Both the position numbers and the translations under genes were made by a program. The notes under the pieces were generated by a model. It had not been told where the DNA came from and searched no databases. It saw only the letters and a list, made by a program, of their open reading frames with translations. From JBFJWU01 sp041623475 [NCBI: bacterium] (GTDB lineage: Bacteria; J088), in contig JBFJWU010000198.1 of NCBI GenBank assembly GCA_041623475.1, positions 1-6,494 of the forward strand: a DNA stretch of 6,494 nucleotides, written 5' to 3'. The stretch's first letter is position 1. Every line of letters begins with the position of its first letter. Shown here one piece after another: positions 1 through 6,054 of this stretch.

Positions 1-2202
1 ATCGTCTGTATAGTCGCTGTAGAGGATGTGCAGATCGCCAACTGGATCCATGATGATCGACGGCCGCCAGCCCACATTACCAAACGTATCAACTTCTTCA
101 GTAACAAACACACCCGTCCGGTTGGTTGAATAAAGCAGGTCACGAACCGGAACCGTGTTGTACCACGCCAGGTGGATAAAGCCGTCGGCATCCAGGATAA
201 AACTGAAATCCTCGACCGTCTTCGATGAAACCTGCTGGCCAGACCAAGTGCCCCCCGCATTGGTCCAGTACCAGGGCGACCAACGGTTGGCAACAATGTG
301 TGGCTTGTGATTGGCATCAACTTCGATGTGGGTGTAGTAGTTGTACCCGCCGGTTGCGACGGTGACAGCTGTCCAGGCGCCGCTTTCATTTGTCGCATAT
401 CGCAGCTCGTTGGTGGCCTGGGCGATGTAACTGATGTGGATCTTGCCGCGCCGGTCGACAGCCAGTGACGACCCCGTGCCTGGCTGGTCATTCATATCGA
501 CCGTGGTCGAGACCCACGAACCGGACAGGTTGGTCACATATTCAAGGTGTTTCAAGGTCCAGTTTACGTGTGAAATATGGGAGTACCCCCCGGAATCCAG
601 CGCGAACGAGGCGGACAAACCGTCGTTATCAGGGGTGGGGATCGATTCAAATTGCCACTGACCTGTGGCATTGTTGCCATAAACCAGATCATCGGCGACC
701 AGGTCCGTATAGACCACATGAGCGTTGCCGTCGGCATCCAGCGCCGTAAAATTATAGGCCGCTGTCTTGCCGGTGGTCAGCGCTGTGGTCTTCCAGTCCT
801 TTTCTGCTGGCGGACGGTAGGTCACGTAAGCCAGTTCACCGGCGCTTTGGTCGTCATGCACAATGTGCACACGCCCGCGAGAATCAATGTCGATGGGATA
901 GGACAGCCCTCCGTCATCGCCGTTCGTGTCCAGCGGCGTCCGGACCCACGAGCCGCTTTTGTTGGTCAGGTAGATCAAATCGTCGGCGTCATTGTCGACA
1001 GTGGCAACGTGGGCCTTTCCGGAATCGTCCAGCACCAGGCTGGTAAACTGGCCTGACCCTCCGGGGGGATTGTCGATCGTTTCAATGGTCCAGGATCCGG
1101 TCGTCCCGGTCACGTATTTTGCGTCCGCCCACGTGCCATCGTAATACGCCATGTGCACAACGCCGTCTGAATCGATTTGCAGTGAAGGGTTATACCCGGT
1201 AATCCCCGCTGAATCGACCGTCTCGAATACCCACGCGCCGCTCTTGTTGGTCCCGTACCGAAGGTCGTTGACCAGATTCTGCCGGTACGCGATATGGGGC
1301 GTGTCCCAGCGATCGACGGCGATACTCGTTTCCAGCCCGACATCGCCGACCGTTTCCAGGGTGCGGGTGTTCCAGGTGCCGGTGGCATTTGTTGCGTATT
1401 TCAGATCCCAGTTTGTAAAGTCCAGGTAGCCAATGTGCGCTGCGCCGCTGCGGTCCAGCGCGATATCGTTGTAAATGCCGACATCGATGCCGGATGGACT
1501 GTCGATAATCTCGACCAGCCAGATGCCTGCCGGGGCCTTGAGGGCAAATGAATCGACAAAGTAGTCGTCACAGCAGGAAAGATCCCCGGTGTTCCTCAGG
1601 CGCAGTCGCTCTGCCGTCGCCGGCAGGGTCCCGGTTACAAGATCGAATGTCGTATCAGACCCGGCAGCTGCCGAGTGGCGTTCCAGCTCAATCCAGCCGG
1701 TGCCGGAATCATATTCCAGGACCAGGTCTTCGCCGGCTTCGGGGGCGTCACCGCCATTGTGTGCACCGCCCGGTTGCCAGTAGTACGCGTATTCCAGCGC
1801 GCCATAAGCCGCGGTGCTGATCGATGTCACCTGGCCGCCACCGTGCAATTGCAGGACGTACCTGCCGGATGGCTGGTTGATCGCCGCGGCAGAGGTCACA
1901 ACGTCCGCCCATGCGGACCAGTTGGCGGTGCTGATCGCGGTCCGGAATTCGTCGTAAATCAGGCTGGTGGTTGCATAACGCAGGTCGTCGCCGACACTGT
2001 CGTAATAACTGATGTGCGGATTGCCGCCCCCGTCGATCGCCAAATGTGGCTGCCCCAGGCCCCACGTGCTCGCGTCAACGGTCTGGAACGTCCACTGGCC
2101 GTCTTCCAGCAGCCCATAGGTAATCGGGTTGCCACTGGTATTCCGCTCGCCAACCACATGTACGCGGTCAAAGCGGTCGACCTTGATATCTCCGAAACCG
2201 GA
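1..2202 (-). repeat. At least thirteen beta-propeller-type blade repeats, last one cut by the window edge
   Basis: The repeated pattern is hydrophobic-x-hydrophobic-D-x-x-G-x-x-H-(I/V)-x-Y, about 12 residues of Asp/Asn-rich loop, L-x-Y-x-T-N, then S-G-x-W and a T-hydrophobic-D strand. The conserved His falls at residues 1299, 1347, 1540, 1587, 1634, 1682, 1730, 1779, 1826, 1873, 1919, 1961 and 2009. Steps are 42-49 residues apart from one of 193. Examples are LAIDGGGNPHISYYD, IAVDRWDTPHIAYRQ, LAVDRRGKIHISYI and ILDADGFIHLAWYN. Four-strand units of this length with a D-x-x-G turn are characteristic of beta-propellers (BNR/Asp-box-like or lectin-type). Thirteen or more units exceed a single common propeller, so two propellers or more is likely. 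The period and turn are clear; the fold and its ligand are inferred. Confidence 0.8.
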
Positions 2203-5200
2203 CGTCGAATCAATCTCAAAAAGGCCCTCACTGATGTTGTGGCGCAGCGGTATCAGGGCCTCGAACACGACCGAACTGTCCACATTGTTTGTACGGTGCT
2301 CCAGCGCCTCGTTAAAGATGTCTGAGCCGGGGACCGGTCGCAGCCAGCTGGTGTCGTTCTCGTGCAGGTCCTGGACAAACACGGCTTCGGTCGTGTTGTA
2401 GTACAGGTAGTCCGGGTTGAGATCCTGAGTCGCCGTATTGGGATTGAAGTAGTACCGATACTGATCCCGCGACGCGATCCAGTACATCCGGGTCAGTGGT
2501 TCGTACGGGAATGCGGCCACAACCAGCGACCATCCGGACTGGTTGTCCAGATCGTCCCGGGCCCGGATCCTGTACTGGTAGGTTGACCCCGGCCTGGTCA
2601 CGGTGTCGACATAGCTCAACTGACCAGCCGGCAGTCCCGGCTCGATGGTCCGGAAGTCGCTGTCCACGGCAACAATCAGGCGCTGCAGCTCGAATCGGTC
2701 GGTGCCACCAGGCGCGCTCCACTGCAGCTCGATTGATGTGTTCGATACGGCAAAGCTGTCACCGGTACTGTCCAGCAGCTGCAGGGCAGGCGGATCGGGT
2801 GCCGTCTGGTCCAGCTCGATAGTCTGCTGGCTGGAGGCGGTATTGCCAGCCCGGTCGCGCAGTTTTACATAGACCGTCTTGTTGCCATCGCCTGCCGGCA
2901 GGAACCACGGACTGGTGGCTGTATAAGGTATCCAGCTGGCATCACCGAAATTGCTCAGGTTGGACAGTTGCATCTCTTCCACGTCCGCGTCTGCACCCGC
3001 GACCGTGACCGTAATCCCCAGGTTGGCGGTTCGCACGGACCCGCCTTCCAGCGCCGTCAGGTTGACGGTCCAGCCCCCGCCGATGGTCGTGTCCAGCGTG
3101 ACAACGGTTGAATAGCAGGCAGACTCTGACCCAGCGAATGTCCGGAAACGAACGGCAACGCTTCGCGCCCCGCTGCCCCCCAGCGTAAACGCGGCGGCTG
3201 GTGCATAAGGCCCCCAGGCACCTCCACAGCCGCCACTGTCCTGGATTTGCATCTGGTCAGCACCTGCTGCGTCCAGCGATAACGTGATTGCGGGATCGTT
3301 GACATAGGCCCCCTGGTCAACAGTAAATCCGCCACCGGATTGAACCGGGACCGCAGTGTCCAGAATCAATGACTGACGACTTACCGGCCCGGAATTACCC
3401 AGCTGGTCGACAAAGCGCAGATACAGATCCTTGTTGCCATCGGACTGGTCCTGAAGTGTATACACAGACGGAAACGAGCCGCAGTCTGCCGTTGCCGTCA
3501 CCGGGTTGAGGAAAGCAAGGTCCTCTGCAAATTCGGCGTAACTGCAGCCAGCCGGATCGGGACCGGCATCCGCCTGGATGGTCAACCCGGGCTGGTTCGA
3601 GTATCCGGGTTGGGCAGAGGGATTGCCGACCACCGAAAAGGAAACCGGTACAGGCCCCTGCGTGTCCAGGGTAATCGAGGCCGCGGCCTGGCACGAGGAT
3701 TGATTGCCGGCATCGTCCTGGAACCGGACGCTGACAAATTGCTGGCCGTCCACAAGCGACAGGTTCCACAGCGTCGCCGTCGTCACCGCAATCCAGCTGC
3801 CCCCGGCACACGATGACCCGGGGCTGAGCCGCATCAGGACCACATCGTCGACATGACTGAGGTTCAGGCCGACCAGGGTATCGTTGGTTATCTGGTAATC
3901 AAACCAGAGCGCGCCGGTCGGGGCGGCACGATCGTAGCTGATCTGGGCGCTGACGGGCGCACCGGCATTATTGGCCGCATCCGAATAGATCGCGTAGACA
4001 ACTTTTACTTCGGCAACACCGTTGCCAAGCGGGTCCGCAAGAAAAAATGGCTTGGTCTGCTCGTAGAACTCCAGCGGTGCCGTCAACGCCGCCGCCATTG
4101 AGGTGCCCAGTTGGACGCCGGCGATTCCGCTGCCACCGGTCGTATCGGCAGCGAACAGGCTGAGGCTGACCGCACCGTTGATGTCCGCCGTCTTTGCCGC
4201 ACCGTTGTCGATCTGAAGACTTGCCAGGTGAGGCGGCGTCGTGTCCAGTTTGATCTCGTCTTCGACCAGCACGCTTTCGTTACCGGCGTCATCGAAAAAC
4301 CGGGCATAGACCCTGTGGGTACCATCCTGGGCCGGCAGGTCCAGCATCAGTGAGGCCGCCCCGCCGGAAATGGTGCCCGGGACACCGTTCAGCATCCCCG
4401 CCGAAGTGGACACAATATAGCTGTATGTTTCAACGGCATCCGCCGCCAGGTTGACGGTCACCGTCCGCGTGTTGACGATCGTACCGACGATGTCGACGCC
4501 GACACCGTCCGGTGCCTGTGTATCGACCGTGATCTGGTCGCTGCTGGCCGGGGTCACATTACCCGCCACATCGCGAAACCTTACAAAGACGTTTTTTAGC
4601 CCGTCGCCGGCGGACAGGTTCCAGATTGTGCTGGTTGTGACCGGTTCCCAGGTTGCGCCAGCGAAACCGCCGTTGTTGCTCAACTGCATCTGGGCGGCAT
4701 CCCCATAATCGATCGAAAGGGCAACAGCCTGGGTCCGCGTAAAATCAGCGCCGGAAGCGATTGTCAATGGTATCGCCGGCAGGCCGGGCGGGGTCGTATC
4801 AACGGTGATCGAAACGGCCGCAGGCAGACTGAGATTCCCGGCCCGGTCTTCCACCTGGGCCATTACGGTATATGTGCCTTCTGCAAAGAAATCATAGGCC
4901 AGCACCGTGGCGTAGAAGTGGGTCTGGACATCATCGGGATCCGCAGCATCCCAGAAGTGGATCAGCGAGGTGCCGCTGCCCGATTCCTGGACCGAAGTCT
5001 CTGCAACAACCGATCCGCCTGCGATTACTTCGGCGCCACCGGCCAGTTCAAAGGAAACAATTTTCGGCGGCGTGGTATCGATCTGGACCTCGGTGGAAAA
5101 CTCAACCTGATCGCCGGCGGCGTTTCGCGCTGTGACGCAGATTGTGTAATTACCGTCGCCACCCTGAACCGTGTGGCCCAGTTCGGCTTCGAAGCTCTGG

Positions 5201-6054
5201 AAATCGCCGTAACCGCCGCAGCGGCTACCGGACTCAACGTCGGTTACGGCAATCTGACCGGCATTGAATGCCGAGACCTGCAGGTTGATGGAGGCACTTT
5301 TCTGTATACTTCCCCCGACAATATTGACAAAACCTGTCAGCGGATAGAGCGTTACTTCGCCCAGGTCAACTGGCTCATCTTCTGTCGCATCAGAAACAGC
5401 CCGGGGATCGATTTCGATCCGCTCCCGTGTATAGTTCCCCCGCTGGACGGTTGCGCTGGGCCGGCGCGATCGCCTGGGTACGGTGGCCCGGTACTCGCCG
5501 CGCGAATCCGCCAGCAGCGTCGAACTGAAAACATTCGCCGGTATGTCCTGGGTGTTGCAGGAAAGGCCCGCTGGAATGTCGGCATCGGTTTCGCCCGTGA
5601 CAGAGACAATCGTTCCCGCAGGATCCGCGCCGTCCGAGAGGCTGACCTTGCCGGTGACGGCAACCCTGTCGAGTGCCAGCAGGATAGTTCCGATATCGAA
5701 AACATCATCGCCGGAATGGACAAATTCAACCGTTTCAACGGCAAACCCGGAAACGTCTGCCGACACGCTGTAGGCACCATTGCCCAGTCCGGCAACCAGA
5801 AACTCGCCCTCGACGGTCGACACAACCGTTGTCACGCCGTGGGGACCCGCGACAGCAACGACGACGCCTTCGCAGGCTCCGATCGCCTCCAGTTCGATGG
5901 TACCCGCCAGCGAACCGGCGCCCATCCAGGCACCAGGTGCGCTGCTATCCGACTCGACAAGCGGGGATTGAACTTTGCCGCATCCAGAGATCGCAATTGC
6001 GGTCGCGACGACAATCGCGATCGGGGGGCTCTTCGTCGCAGGAAAAAACTTCAT
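1..6054 (-). CDS. Giant multidomain surface lipoprotein with Ig-like stalk and beta-propeller repeats (3' end outside window)
   Basis: The frame runs from ATG 6054 to base 1 with no stop: 2,018 codons, C-terminus missing. The start is well fixed. The in-frame codons upstream are CCG, ATC, GGA and then a TGA stop at 6064-6066, so no earlier start exists, and a GAGGA ribosome binding site lies 6 nt before the ATG. Domains in order (residues): lipoprotein signal 1-24 with lipobox ISGC and Cys25; two carboxypeptidase-regulatory-like beta domains about 47-127 and 132-237; nine Ig-like units 238-1081; FnIII-like 1082-1186; linker to about 1284; at least thirteen propeller-type units from about 1285, interrupted by a jelly-roll-like domain at about 1365-1509. 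No enzyme motif, sortase signal or internal membrane segment is seen. Inferred location is the outer membrane or cell surface (Gly26 after Cys25 is compatible with Lol export), with a role in binding or adhesion. The function is not established by the sequence. It has no visible operon partner. Confidence 0.93.
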   Translation of the reverse strand, partial: MKFFPATKSPPIAIVVATAIAISGCGKVQSPLVESDSSAPGAWMGAGSLAGTIELEAIGACEGVVVAVAGPHGVTTVVSTVEGEFLVAGLGNGAYSVSADVSGFAVETVEFVHSGDDVFDIGTILLALDRVAVTGKVSLSDGADPAGTIVSVTGETDADIPAGLSCNTQDIPANVFSSTLLADSRGEYRATVPRRSRRPSATVQRGNYTRERIEIDPRAVSDATEDEPVDLGEVTLYPLTGFVNIVGGSIQKSASINLQVSAFNAGQIAVTDVESGSRCGGYGDFQSFEAELGHTVQGGDGNYTICVTARNAAGDQVEFSTEVQIDTTPPKIVSFELAGGAEVIAGGSVVAETSVQESGSGTSLIHFWDAADPDDVQTHFYATVLAYDFFAEGTYTVMAQVEDRAGNLSLPAAVSITVDTTPPGLPAIPLTIASGADFTRTQAVALSIDYGDAAQMQLSNNGGFAGATWEPVTTSTIWNLSAGDGLKNVFVRFRDVAGNVTPASSDQITVDTQAPDGVGVDIVGTIVNTRTVTVNLAADAVETYSYIVSTSAGMLNGVPGTISGGAASLMLDLPAQDGTHRVYARFFDDAGNESVLVEDEIKLDTTPPHLASLQIDNGAAKTADINGAVSLSLFAADTTGGSGIAGVQLGTSMAAALTAPLEFYEQTKPFFLADPLGNGVAEVKVVYAIYSDAANNAGAPVSAQISYDRAAPTGALWFDYQITNDTLVGLNLSHVDDVVLMRLSPGSSCAGGSWIAVTTATLWNLSLVDGQQFVSVRFQDDAGNQSSCQAAASITLDTQGPVPVSFSVVGNPSAQPGYSNQPGLTIQADAGPDPAGCSYAEFAEDLAFLNPVTATADCGSFPSVYTLQDQSDGNKDLYLRFVDQLGNSGPVSRQSLILDTAVPVQSGGGFTVDQGAYVNDPAITLSLDAAGADQMQIQDSGGCGGAWGPYAPAAAFTLGGSGARSVAVRFRTFAGSESACYSTVVTLDTTIGGGWTVNLTALEGGSVRTANLGITVTVAGADADVEEMQLSNLSNFGDASWIPYTATSPWFLPAGDGNKTVYVKLRDRAGNTASSQQTIELDQTAPDPPALQLLDSTGDSFAVSNTSIELQWSAPGGTDRFELQRLIVAVDSDFRTIEPGLPAGQLSYVDTVTRPGSTYQYRIRARDDLDNQSGWSLVVAAFPYEPLTRMYWIASRDQYRYYFNPNTATQDLNPDYLYYNTTEAVFVQDLHENDTSWLRPVPGSDIFNEALEHRTNNVDSSVVFEALIPLRHNISEGLFEIDSTSGFGDIKVDRFDRVHVVGERNTSGNPITYGLLEDGQWTFQTVDASTWGLGQPHLAIDGGGNPHISYYDSVGDDLRYATTSLIYDEFRTAISTANWSAWADVVTSAAAINQPSGRYVLQLHGGGQVTSISTAAYGALEYAYYWQPGGAHNGGDAPEAGEDLVLEYDSGTGWIELERHSAAAGSDTTFDLVTGTLPATAERLRLRNTGDLSCCDDYFVDSFALKAPAGIWLVEIIDSPSGIDVGIYNDIALDRSGAAHIGYLDFTNWDLKYATNATGTWNTRTLETVGDVGLETSIAVDRWDTPHIAYRQNLVNDLRYGTNKSGAWVFETVDSAGITGYNPSLQIDSDGVVHMAYYDGTWADAKYVTGTTGSWTIETIDNPPGGSGQFTSLVLDDSGKAHVATVDNDADDLIYLTNKSGSWVRTPLDTNGDDGGLSYPIDIDSRGRVHIVHDDQSAGELAYVTYRPPAEKDWKTTALTTGKTAAYNFTALDADGNAHVVYTDLVADDLVYGNNATGQWQFESIPTPDNDGLSASFALDSGGYSHISHVNWTLKHLEYVTNLSGSWVSTTVDMNDQPGTGSSLAVDRRGKIHISYIAQATNELRYATNESGAWTAVTVATGGYNYYTHIEVDANHKPHIVANRWSPWYWTNAGGTWSGQQVSSKTVEDFSFILDADGFIHLAWYNTVPVRDLLYSTNRTGVFVTEEVDTFGNVGWRPSIIMDPVGDLHILYSDYTDD
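1528..1962 (-). other. Jelly-roll-like (MAM/Reelin-repeat-like) domain inserted in a propeller blade
   Basis: Residues about 1365-1509 break the blade repeat between the LRYAT strand of the unit with His1347 and the GIWLVEIID strand that would normally follow directly. The segment starts with YDEFRTAISTANWS and has an aromatic strand LEYAYYWQPGG. It continues with EDLVLEYDSGTGWIELERH and ends with RLRLRNTG, a vicinal Cys1494-Cys1495 pair and DDYFVDSFAL. The order 'D.lv.eys...gW.el', 'lp....rlRf.ntg...D.wfvDd' is what I know from carbohydrate-binding-type jelly rolls such as MAM and Reelin subrepeats. The insertion adds 145 residues to the usual 48-residue step. Domain assignment is by eye; the insertion itself is certain from the repeat spacing. 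Confidence 0.65.
2497..2811 (-). other. Fibronectin type III-like domain
   Basis: Residues 1082-1186 follow the last DQTAP linker. They contain the Trp-bearing strand SIELQWSAPGGTDRFELQR and later YQYRIRARDDLDNQSGWS, matching the FnIII pattern of an early 'l.W..p.....y.v.r' strand and a late 'Y.YrirA.d..gn.S.wS' strand. The domain joins the Ig-like stalk to the distal propeller region through a linker of about 100 residues (about 1187-1284) that is rich in Tyr, Asn and Asp and has no motif I recognise. FnIII domains are structural or ligand-binding modules. Confidence 0.7.
2812..5343 (-). repeat. Nine tandem Ig-like units with DT-x-x-P linkers (protein-level repeat)
   Basis: Units begin near residues 238, 326, 419, 511, 604, 708, 797, 899 and 988, and the array ends at 1081, so the period is 88-104 residues. 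Junctions are DTTPP (326, 419, 604), DTQAP (511), DRAAP (708), DTQGP (797), DTAVP (899), DTTIG (988) and DQTAP (1082). Inside many units the order is an A-x-x-M-Q-(L/I) strand, a Trp about 14 residues on, W-(N/F)-L, then GDG.K.V.V.FRD.AGN, for example GDGLKNVFVRFRDVAGN and GDGNKTVYVKLRDRAGN. This arrangement is typical of bacterial Ig-like beta-sandwich arrays in surface proteins, where they act as a stiff stalk. Repeats are well diverged in DNA, so they do not look recently amplified. The exact Pfam family is not claimed. Confidence 0.85.
5344..5916 (-). other. Two carboxypeptidase-regulatory-like (Cna-B type) beta domains
   Basis: Residues 47-127 begin with a G-S-L-A-G-T-I strand and contain EGEFLVAGLGNGAYSVSAD followed by a DIGTILL strand. 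This is the usual order of the small beta-sandwich found in carboxypeptidase regulatory-like domains (glycine-rich turn, 'G.Y.v.a...G' strand, final hydrophobic strand). Residues 132-237 repeat the pattern more loosely, with AVTGKVSL at the start, GEYRATVP in the middle and DLGEVTLYPL at the end, plus a longer basic loop around residues 193-205. Such domains are structural and common at the base of surface proteins. Cys61 and Cys165 lie one in each module. The family match is by eye only; the first module is clearer than the second. Confidence 0.6.
5980..6054 (-). other. Lipoprotein signal peptide and lipidation cysteine
   Basis: Residues 1-25 show a short basic N-region (Lys2, Lys8), a hydrophobic stretch rich in Ile, Val and Ala (about 12-22), and the lipobox I-S-G-C ending at Cys25. 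This is the class of signal processed by signal peptidase II after lipid attachment to the cysteine. The following residue is Gly26, not Asp, so in a Gram-negative host the protein would be expected to move on to the outer membrane. Residues 26-46 are a polar, Ser- and Gly-containing tether before the first domain. Confidence 0.88.

Follow-up and report, generated by a model that had tools for sequence, protein, structure and literature searches.

Domains inserted in propellers are known already from the integrin alpha-I proteins and from the sialidase of V. cholerae. According to PMC12422189, the integrin I domain follows the second propeller blade and precedes the third, and it expands the ligand repertoire. 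In the sialidase, an inserted lectin-like domain interrupts the propeller, which the accessible text of PMC2716378 calls a 'type 2' Asp-box propeller. Inserted domains are described in the available part of PMC13114784 as generally compact, typically 50-200 residues long, with termini that lie close together. In the open-licence literature, as far as its text could be searched, we found no previous description of a propeller blade that holds a Reelin/MAM-type domain.

We examined one large open reading frame (ORF) in the window, by which we mean the whole stretch of 6,494 nucleotides that was analysed. We consider it probable that this ORF encodes a lipoprotein with an Ig-like stalk, two tandem seven-bladed propellers, and a Reelin/MAM-type jelly roll inserted at the c-d turn of the second blade. 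In the proposed architecture the stalk would carry a head made of the two propellers, and in blade 2 of ring 1 a jelly roll of ~144 residues would take the place of the short connection between outer strands c and d. As in integrin alpha-I, a whole domain follows blade 2 of a seven-bladed propeller. The integrin insert, however, has a vWFA fold and sits at the end of blade 2, whereas the window protein is predicted to have a jelly roll in the c-d turn and has no known partner subunit or signalling. The V. cholerae sialidase likewise has one propeller broken by an inserted domain, but its propeller has six blades of Asp-box type, in contrast to the seven D-x-x-G-x-x-H blades and Reelin-like insert of the window. 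The locus offers a clear case of a domain set into a blade turn, in which host and insert can each be traced to free-standing relatives. As a prokaryotic counterpart of the integrin alpha-I insertion, it also raises the question of whether there is a general reason why propellers tolerate an insert following blade 2.

The ORF begins with a signal sequence and a lipobox-like ISGC motif ending at Cys25. The protein is presumably a lipoprotein on the cell surface. The features that follow are listed in Table 1. In the stalk, a match to an OmpL47-type domain fell narrowly below threshold (39.9 bits vs a cut-off of 40), and no family match was listed for window positions 2203-2487 (residues about 1190-1284), which lead from the fn3-like domain to the first blade. 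Within the propellers, window positions 382-1041 (residues 1672-1891) matched the NCBIfam model PDIAV_lipo weakly, at 25 of 90 bits.

Table 1. Positions of the features of the large ORF in the window, with the residues and the basis of each assignment.
Feature	Window positions	Strand	Residues and basis
Large ORF	1..6054	-	2018 aa up to window base 1, where the frame is still open; C-terminus past the window
Stalk of bacterial Ig-like repeats	2800..5067	-	About residues 330-1085; Pfam Big_13, 6 stretches, E 3.3e-18
fn3-like domain	2548..2751	-	Residues 1102-1169; 19.6 bits, Pfam cut-off of 25 not reached
First seven-bladed propeller ring (predicted), insert within its span	787..2235	-	Residues 1274-1756; VIA-align ranges and sevens in many relatives
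Blade 2, strands before the insert	1963..2094	-	Residues 1321-1364, ending LRYATTS
Inserted Reelin/MAM-type jelly roll (predicted)	1531..1962	-	Residues 1365-1508; takes the place of the short turn between strands c and d of blade 2
D1449-S-G-T-G-W1454, Asp-box core D-x-G-x-x-W	1693..1710	-	Sequence
Cys1494-Cys1495, adjacent pair	1570..1575	-	Same place as TCCDYWFVDDV in archaeal-draw members
Blade 2, outer strand d continuing past the insert (putative), GIWLVEIIDSP	1495..1527	-	Lines up with the G-x-W strand found in the remaining blades
Blades 3 to 7 of ring 1	796..1494	-	
Ring boundary (putative)	754..807	-	Residues 1750-1767; YRPPAEKDW onward, without G-x-W turn; pLDDT <50
Second ring, blades 8 to 13	1..795	-	Last blade would fall past the window

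Propeller-type repeats begin at about residue 1275, and the initial annotation had noted that their conserved histidines recur every 42-49 residues apart from a step of 193 between His1347 and His1540. The thirteen histidines (1299, 1347, 1540, 1587, 1634, 1682, 1730, 1779, 1826, 1873, 1919, 1961 and 2009) are separated by 48, 193, 47, 47, 48, 48, 49, 47, 47, 46, 42 and 48 residues, and eleven of the twelve steps thus fall in the range described. The motif D..[GDHW]..H, which we picked after the repeats had been seen, occurs 13 times in residues 1285-2018 vs a mean of 0.56 in shuffled sequences, and at least 12 occurrences were reached in 0 of 2000 shuffles. When three-blade pieces were aligned to each other with MAFFT, the single large gap corresponded to residues 1365-1508. 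This gives an extra piece of 144 aa, which agrees within one residue with the ~145 residues proposed earlier, and it lies where it had been placed, between ..DLRYATTS and ..GIWLVEIID. The two cysteines attributed to it, Cys1494 and Cys1495, are present and are its only ones. With these results, we conclude that a domain-sized extra piece lies within one propeller repeat.

An architecture found only once could come from an assembly chimera or from a frame artefact fusing two genes. We regard this as extremely improbable, as the frame is unbroken on both sides of the insert, the blade sequence is complete on either side, and the boundaries fall at a turn. The insert also has a GC of 0.623 and a GC3 of 0.715, inside the range of the gene's other 144-codon stretches (0.544-0.639 and 0.583-0.813, respectively). 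Because composition lies in the gene's range and the frame is unbroken, there is no sign of an assembly artefact.

The initial annotation had read the extra piece as a complete jelly roll of MAM/Reelin type. Predicted alone, from an alignment with 25 relatives of the insert, it formed one compact domain with a mean pLDDT of 90.6 and a pTM of 0.86. Comparison of this model with solved structures by VIA-align returned Reelin for all six top matches (2e26, 5b4x, 3a7q, 7lyu, 6a48 and 2ddu; Z 15.6-17.2, 138-145 residues aligned, rmsd 2.4-3.2), and the best of these was 2e26 (Z 17.2, 138 aligned, rmsd 2.4). The cleaved adhesin of Kgp (Z 14.5), the meprin MAM domain (Z 13.7) and CBM16 (Z 13.1) came next. 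Foldseek also ranked Reelin at the top, with CBM16 and CBM22 entries after it. The structural part of the proposal was thus borne out, whereas a Pfam search of the insert alone, also proposed there, gave no match for the window copy at E<=10, including Reelin_subrepeat-B (PF21471). Nor did the window insert alone yield a notable Pfam, NCBIfam or PDB sequence match; a hit to aerolysin among the PDB sequences (E 0.096 over a 32-residue stretch) was taken as chance.

The family of the insert is recognized where the single copy is not. In an alignment of 31 rows, the window row included, 28 matched Reelin_subrepeat-B (E<=1, best 2.2e-8), and the window row matched nothing. Six relatives scanned singly against this model scored 18.5-26.2 bits, all below the curated cut-off of 27. 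MAM (PF00629) was matched by two of the 31 rows at E<=1 (best 2.4e-4), the window row not among them, and an NCBIfam choice-of-anchor J model by seven (best 0.0014). A profile of the insert matched Reelin in the PDB at 1.1e-7 over the whole chain, with a top single stretch of only 16.3 bits. Reelin subrepeats carry the Asp-box X-X-S/T-X-D/N-X-G-X-X-W, according to the available part of PMC4882317, and the insert has D1449-x-G1451-x-x-W1454, with Glu1447 at the S/T position. The insert resembles Reelin subrepeat B in fold, size and Asp-box core, and its relatives match that family. Unlike subrepeat B, the window copy misses the Pfam model and lies inside another domain, without EGF-like spacer or subrepeat A; the arrangement subrepeat A - EGF - subrepeat B is absent around the insert, whose flanks are propeller strands. 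Taken together, the predicted model and the family matches strongly support the insert as a Reelin/MAM-type jelly roll that folds on its own.

We then considered how many blades make up the host ring. The blade repeats of the window read D-x-x-G-x-x-H, and Asp-boxes (S-x-D-x-G-x-x-W) are not found in the blades. A blade profile, which detects 12 of the 13 window blades and misses the first one, was run on 22 loci that share the repeats (L001-L003, which are viral, and L004-L022). Exactly 7 blades in one ORF were found at 9 of the 22 (L002, L009, L013, L015-L018, L021 and L022), whereas L005 and L008 had two sets of seven (7+7) and L007 had three (7+7+7), the step from one ring to the next being 135-139 residues. 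Other counts were 8 (L001 and L003), 6+6 (L004), 14 without a linker (L010), 6 (L006 and L019), 5 (L020), 2+5 (L012) and 4 in the cut-off L011, and L014 had a longer set of blades. Applied to the window, the rule of seven makes blades 1-7 (His1299 to His1730) ring 1 and starts ring 2 at His1779. YRPPAEKDW, which follows blade 7, is the longest turn besides the insert and is without the G-x-W seen in other turns.

Family models say less about the propeller. The window protein was not listed for BNR_4 in a Pfam search at E<=10. Among relatives, L001 and L010 had no BNR_4 listing either, and three others scored 63.6 (L005), 43.1 (L013) and 55.8 bits (L009) against a cut-off of 27.3; these scores are summed over repeats, and no single stretch passes. 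Propeller relatives also match BT3686-type chains by sequence at E about 1e-5. We give such scores little weight, because repetitive queries match unrelated families too, designed TIM barrels first. On the viral contigs, propellers of the same type with 7-8 blades (L001:7887-9050, L002:7992-9053 and L003:6852-10901) lie beside genes that read as phage structural, and judging from sequence these propellers are possibly tail adhesins.

To place the insert within the ring, we modelled residues 1255-2018, spanning both propellers. MAFFT misplaced mixed alignments of rings and Reelin-type domains, although rows of six blades alone aligned properly, and for this reason the model was built with Reelin rows only. 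The alignment rows other than the query covered essentially the insert alone; the propeller was thus predicted without homologues, but also without bias as to which blades close the ring. The best of five models, which is the one analysed, had a mean pLDDT of 71.6 and a pTM of 0.49, and the other four averaged 50.0-62.4. Ten-residue blocks of residues 1365-1504 had a pLDDT of 76-94, and values were <50 over most of 1255-1285, nearly throughout 1510-1526, and at 1750-1767. The first two of these segments are expected to contain the strand that closes the ring and the one that follows the insert.

Seven-bladed propellers were matched by VIA-align over at most model positions 20..502 (residues 1274-1756), and the matched ranges run across the insert. 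The matches included CylK (7roo; Z 30.0, 319 aligned, rmsd 2.9), PLL lectins (Z 27.2-28.2, with PLL2 lectin 6rg2 at Z 28.2 and 302 aligned of 343), GH145 BT3686 (5mul; Z 25.6) and integrin alphaV (7y1t; Z 23.3). The numbers of aligned residues fit a ring with the insert skipped; the ranges are first and last aligned residues, and do not themselves prove the alignment of 1510-1526. Over both rings, about model 24..759, Elp2 entries matched with an rmsd of 11.0-12.5. Foldseek on the same model gave an rmsd of 15.5-31.6 and a TMq of 0.12-0.26 among the 50 matches listed, and the high rmsd may result from fitting both rings and the insert jointly.

In the strand map, one blade consists of strands a (HLAI), b (PHISYYD), c (LRYAT) and d (WTFQTV). 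Strands c and d form one hairpin, because they are joined by only 2 to 6 residues in blades 1 and 3-6. In blade 2 of the model the insert stands in place of this short c-d connection, and the strand that follows is predicted with low confidence: 1515-1517 alone is assigned as strand, with pLDDT mostly <50, and GIWLVEIID aligns with the other d strands. The first and last strands of the insert lie at its two sequence ends in the insert model, so the domain can plausibly ride on the hairpin and leave the blade intact. In the model, the repeat of blade 7 does not itself supply a d strand, which would fit closure of the ring by the N-terminal strand.

A different arrangement of the same parts would make the Reelin-type domain a linker between two separate propellers. 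The poorly modelled strand after the insert is consistent with this, and several relatives carry an extra domain between rings at the same repeat phase (the steps of 135-139, and so about 90 extra residues). In the other blade ORFs, however, steps >130 follow the 6th, 7th or 14th detected blade, and such a step early in a ring is seen in the window alone. The insert has only two blades before it, and five further ones would not fit into the ~115 residues between the fn3-like domain and blade 1. Built without propeller rows, the model shows one ring over 1274-1756, and its confidence drops at 1750-1767, just past blade 7. We therefore judge a linker to be very unlikely. The prediction, in which the closing strand has low confidence, and the sevens in relatives strongly support a host of one seven-bladed ring. 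An insert made of ordinary propeller strands, which the initial annotation had named as refuting its reading, did not appear in this prediction, and the two flanks of the insert belong to one ring.

With the insert in the c-d turn of blade 2, the domain would project from the rim of the ring. Among the top fold neighbours of the insert and of the ring are lectins, adhesins and proteins that bind carbohydrates or act on glycans. The first ring shares its seven-bladed form with PLL-type lectins, CylK and GH145/PL42 (BT3686) at Z 25.6-30.0, and a seven-bladed enzyme that it matches is described in the accessible part of PMC8377490. By analogy, these neighbours favour binding of a glycan or a protein, and the insert could be a second recognition module of either kind beside a lectin-like or enzyme-like propeller. 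The jelly roll might instead be merely structural, packing on the second ring or the stalk and stiffening the head without a ligand of its own. The available text of PMC2716378 reports that the Asp-boxes of Reelin subrepeats support contacts between domains, and in the family alignment the window copy is shorter in two loops by a few residues that its relatives have. Many of the fold neighbours are recognition modules, which speaks against a purely structural role, though they are compatible with one. We think such a role unlikely, and it is compatible with the structural core of our preferred explanation, a jelly roll in a blade turn of one ring.

Among all collected loci, blades were found in 60 ORFs (E<=1e-3) and the Reelin-type domain in 105 (E<=1e-2), the window counted in, and both occurred together in the window ORF only. 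These counts include repeated contigs (e.g. L005/L136, L007/L139, L004/L140), and most genome loci extend ~1.5 kb past the match, so that more distant blades would be missed. The initial annotation had treated the jelly roll as an addition to the blade, and the propeller relatives that we examined were without such an insert. Steps of 79-101 residues occurred in L141 (after blade 6), L019 (after 4), L137 (after 11) and L152 (after 8); from their length, those of 94 and 101 would fit one missed blade.

A clear insert homologue was present in one of the 18 propeller-bearing genomes (G014, the genome of L018; E 6.9e-10). This is a Candidatus Poseidoniaceae archaeon, in which propeller and jelly roll lie on separate contigs. 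Insert homologues were found in 27 of the 194 genomes drawn from the phylum of G014 (E<=0.001), and the insert profile matched (E<=1e-4) in 25/199, 3/148, 3/299, 5/7, 5/121 and 21/100 genomes of six other phylum draws. The archaeal draw also yielded four tandem Reelin-type domains in one protein (L057:3335-7999, + strand).

Searching with ring and insert together (E<=1e-8) gave matches in 51 of 147 genomes of the WOR-3 draw and in 1 of 249 of the G013 draw. Most of the WOR-3 places listed cover blades following the insert, and two, G1136 (query 62-249) and G1104 (68-245), cover blade 2 plus the insert. These were rejected as second cases, since the sequence before the domain (L111 and L112) reads as a Kre9/KNH-like repeat and has no blade match. 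No second case of propeller plus insert turned up in 1880 genome searches, whose draws overlap. Both types also occur at L011, but there as a propeller ORF on one strand and a weak Reelin-type ORF (E 4.5e-4) on the other, not as one protein. L026, the match in 1 of 398 genomes of the G013 phylum draw (E 1e-3), lies opposite an apparent TonB-dependent receptor and was discarded; L024 (E 0.05) and L025 (E 0.08, one internal stop) were left out. Scans of viral and genome contigs with the single protein found no relative, and blade alignments were needed, one of which gave zero matches. The Reelin-type alignment had no match in viral contigs. Against plasmids, tblastn of the propeller returned none at E<=1e-3 and tblastn of the insert returned 12 records (best E 0.4), and PHROGs gave weak matches only (E 0.038 or worse).

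The same type of domain was found in other hosts. L111 (WOR-3 draw) has a Reelin-type domain in the first of five Kre9/KNH-like repeats only. By eye, the extra piece falls close to where the other four repeats have their S-T-N-G-G turn; automatic alignment gave no clean gap. L112, from the same draw, reads like L111 in its N-terminal part; it matches Kre9_KNH (E 3.6e-12) and has a weak match to Reelin_subrepeat-B. In L094:220-2475 (+ strand; draw around a Proteobacteria record), a Reelin-type domain at 428-537 follows the main Peptidase_S8 stretch (166-375, of 2 stretches in total) and precedes a segment with GTSMATPNVAG, and the catalytic domain of this putative subtilase appears to be interrupted by the jelly roll. 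Bacterial and archaeal Reelin/MAM-type jelly rolls that Pfam recognizes only weakly would thus be inserted in three different hosts. We tentatively suggest that they are a recurrent prokaryotic plug-in that replaces turns in unrelated hosts (propeller, Kre9/KNH-like repeat, subtilase), and that the window protein has an integrin-like head, evolved independently of animals, with a second recognition domain after blade 2; we would not yet put this at even odds.

Across the insert family, four cysteine columns behave nearly as all-or-none. In 113 aligned rows, made up of 112 distinct domain stretches and a second window row, all four cysteines were present in 23 and none in 86. The half states are the two window rows, which have the adjacent pair only, L051, which has the other two only, and L058, which has one. 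Elsewhere the adjacent pair occurs in members with four cysteines, and those seen in the alignment of 31 rows come from the archaeal draw. The two half-state sequences, that of the window and L051, suggest that the two adjacent cysteines may form a vicinal disulfide and the other two a bond of their own.
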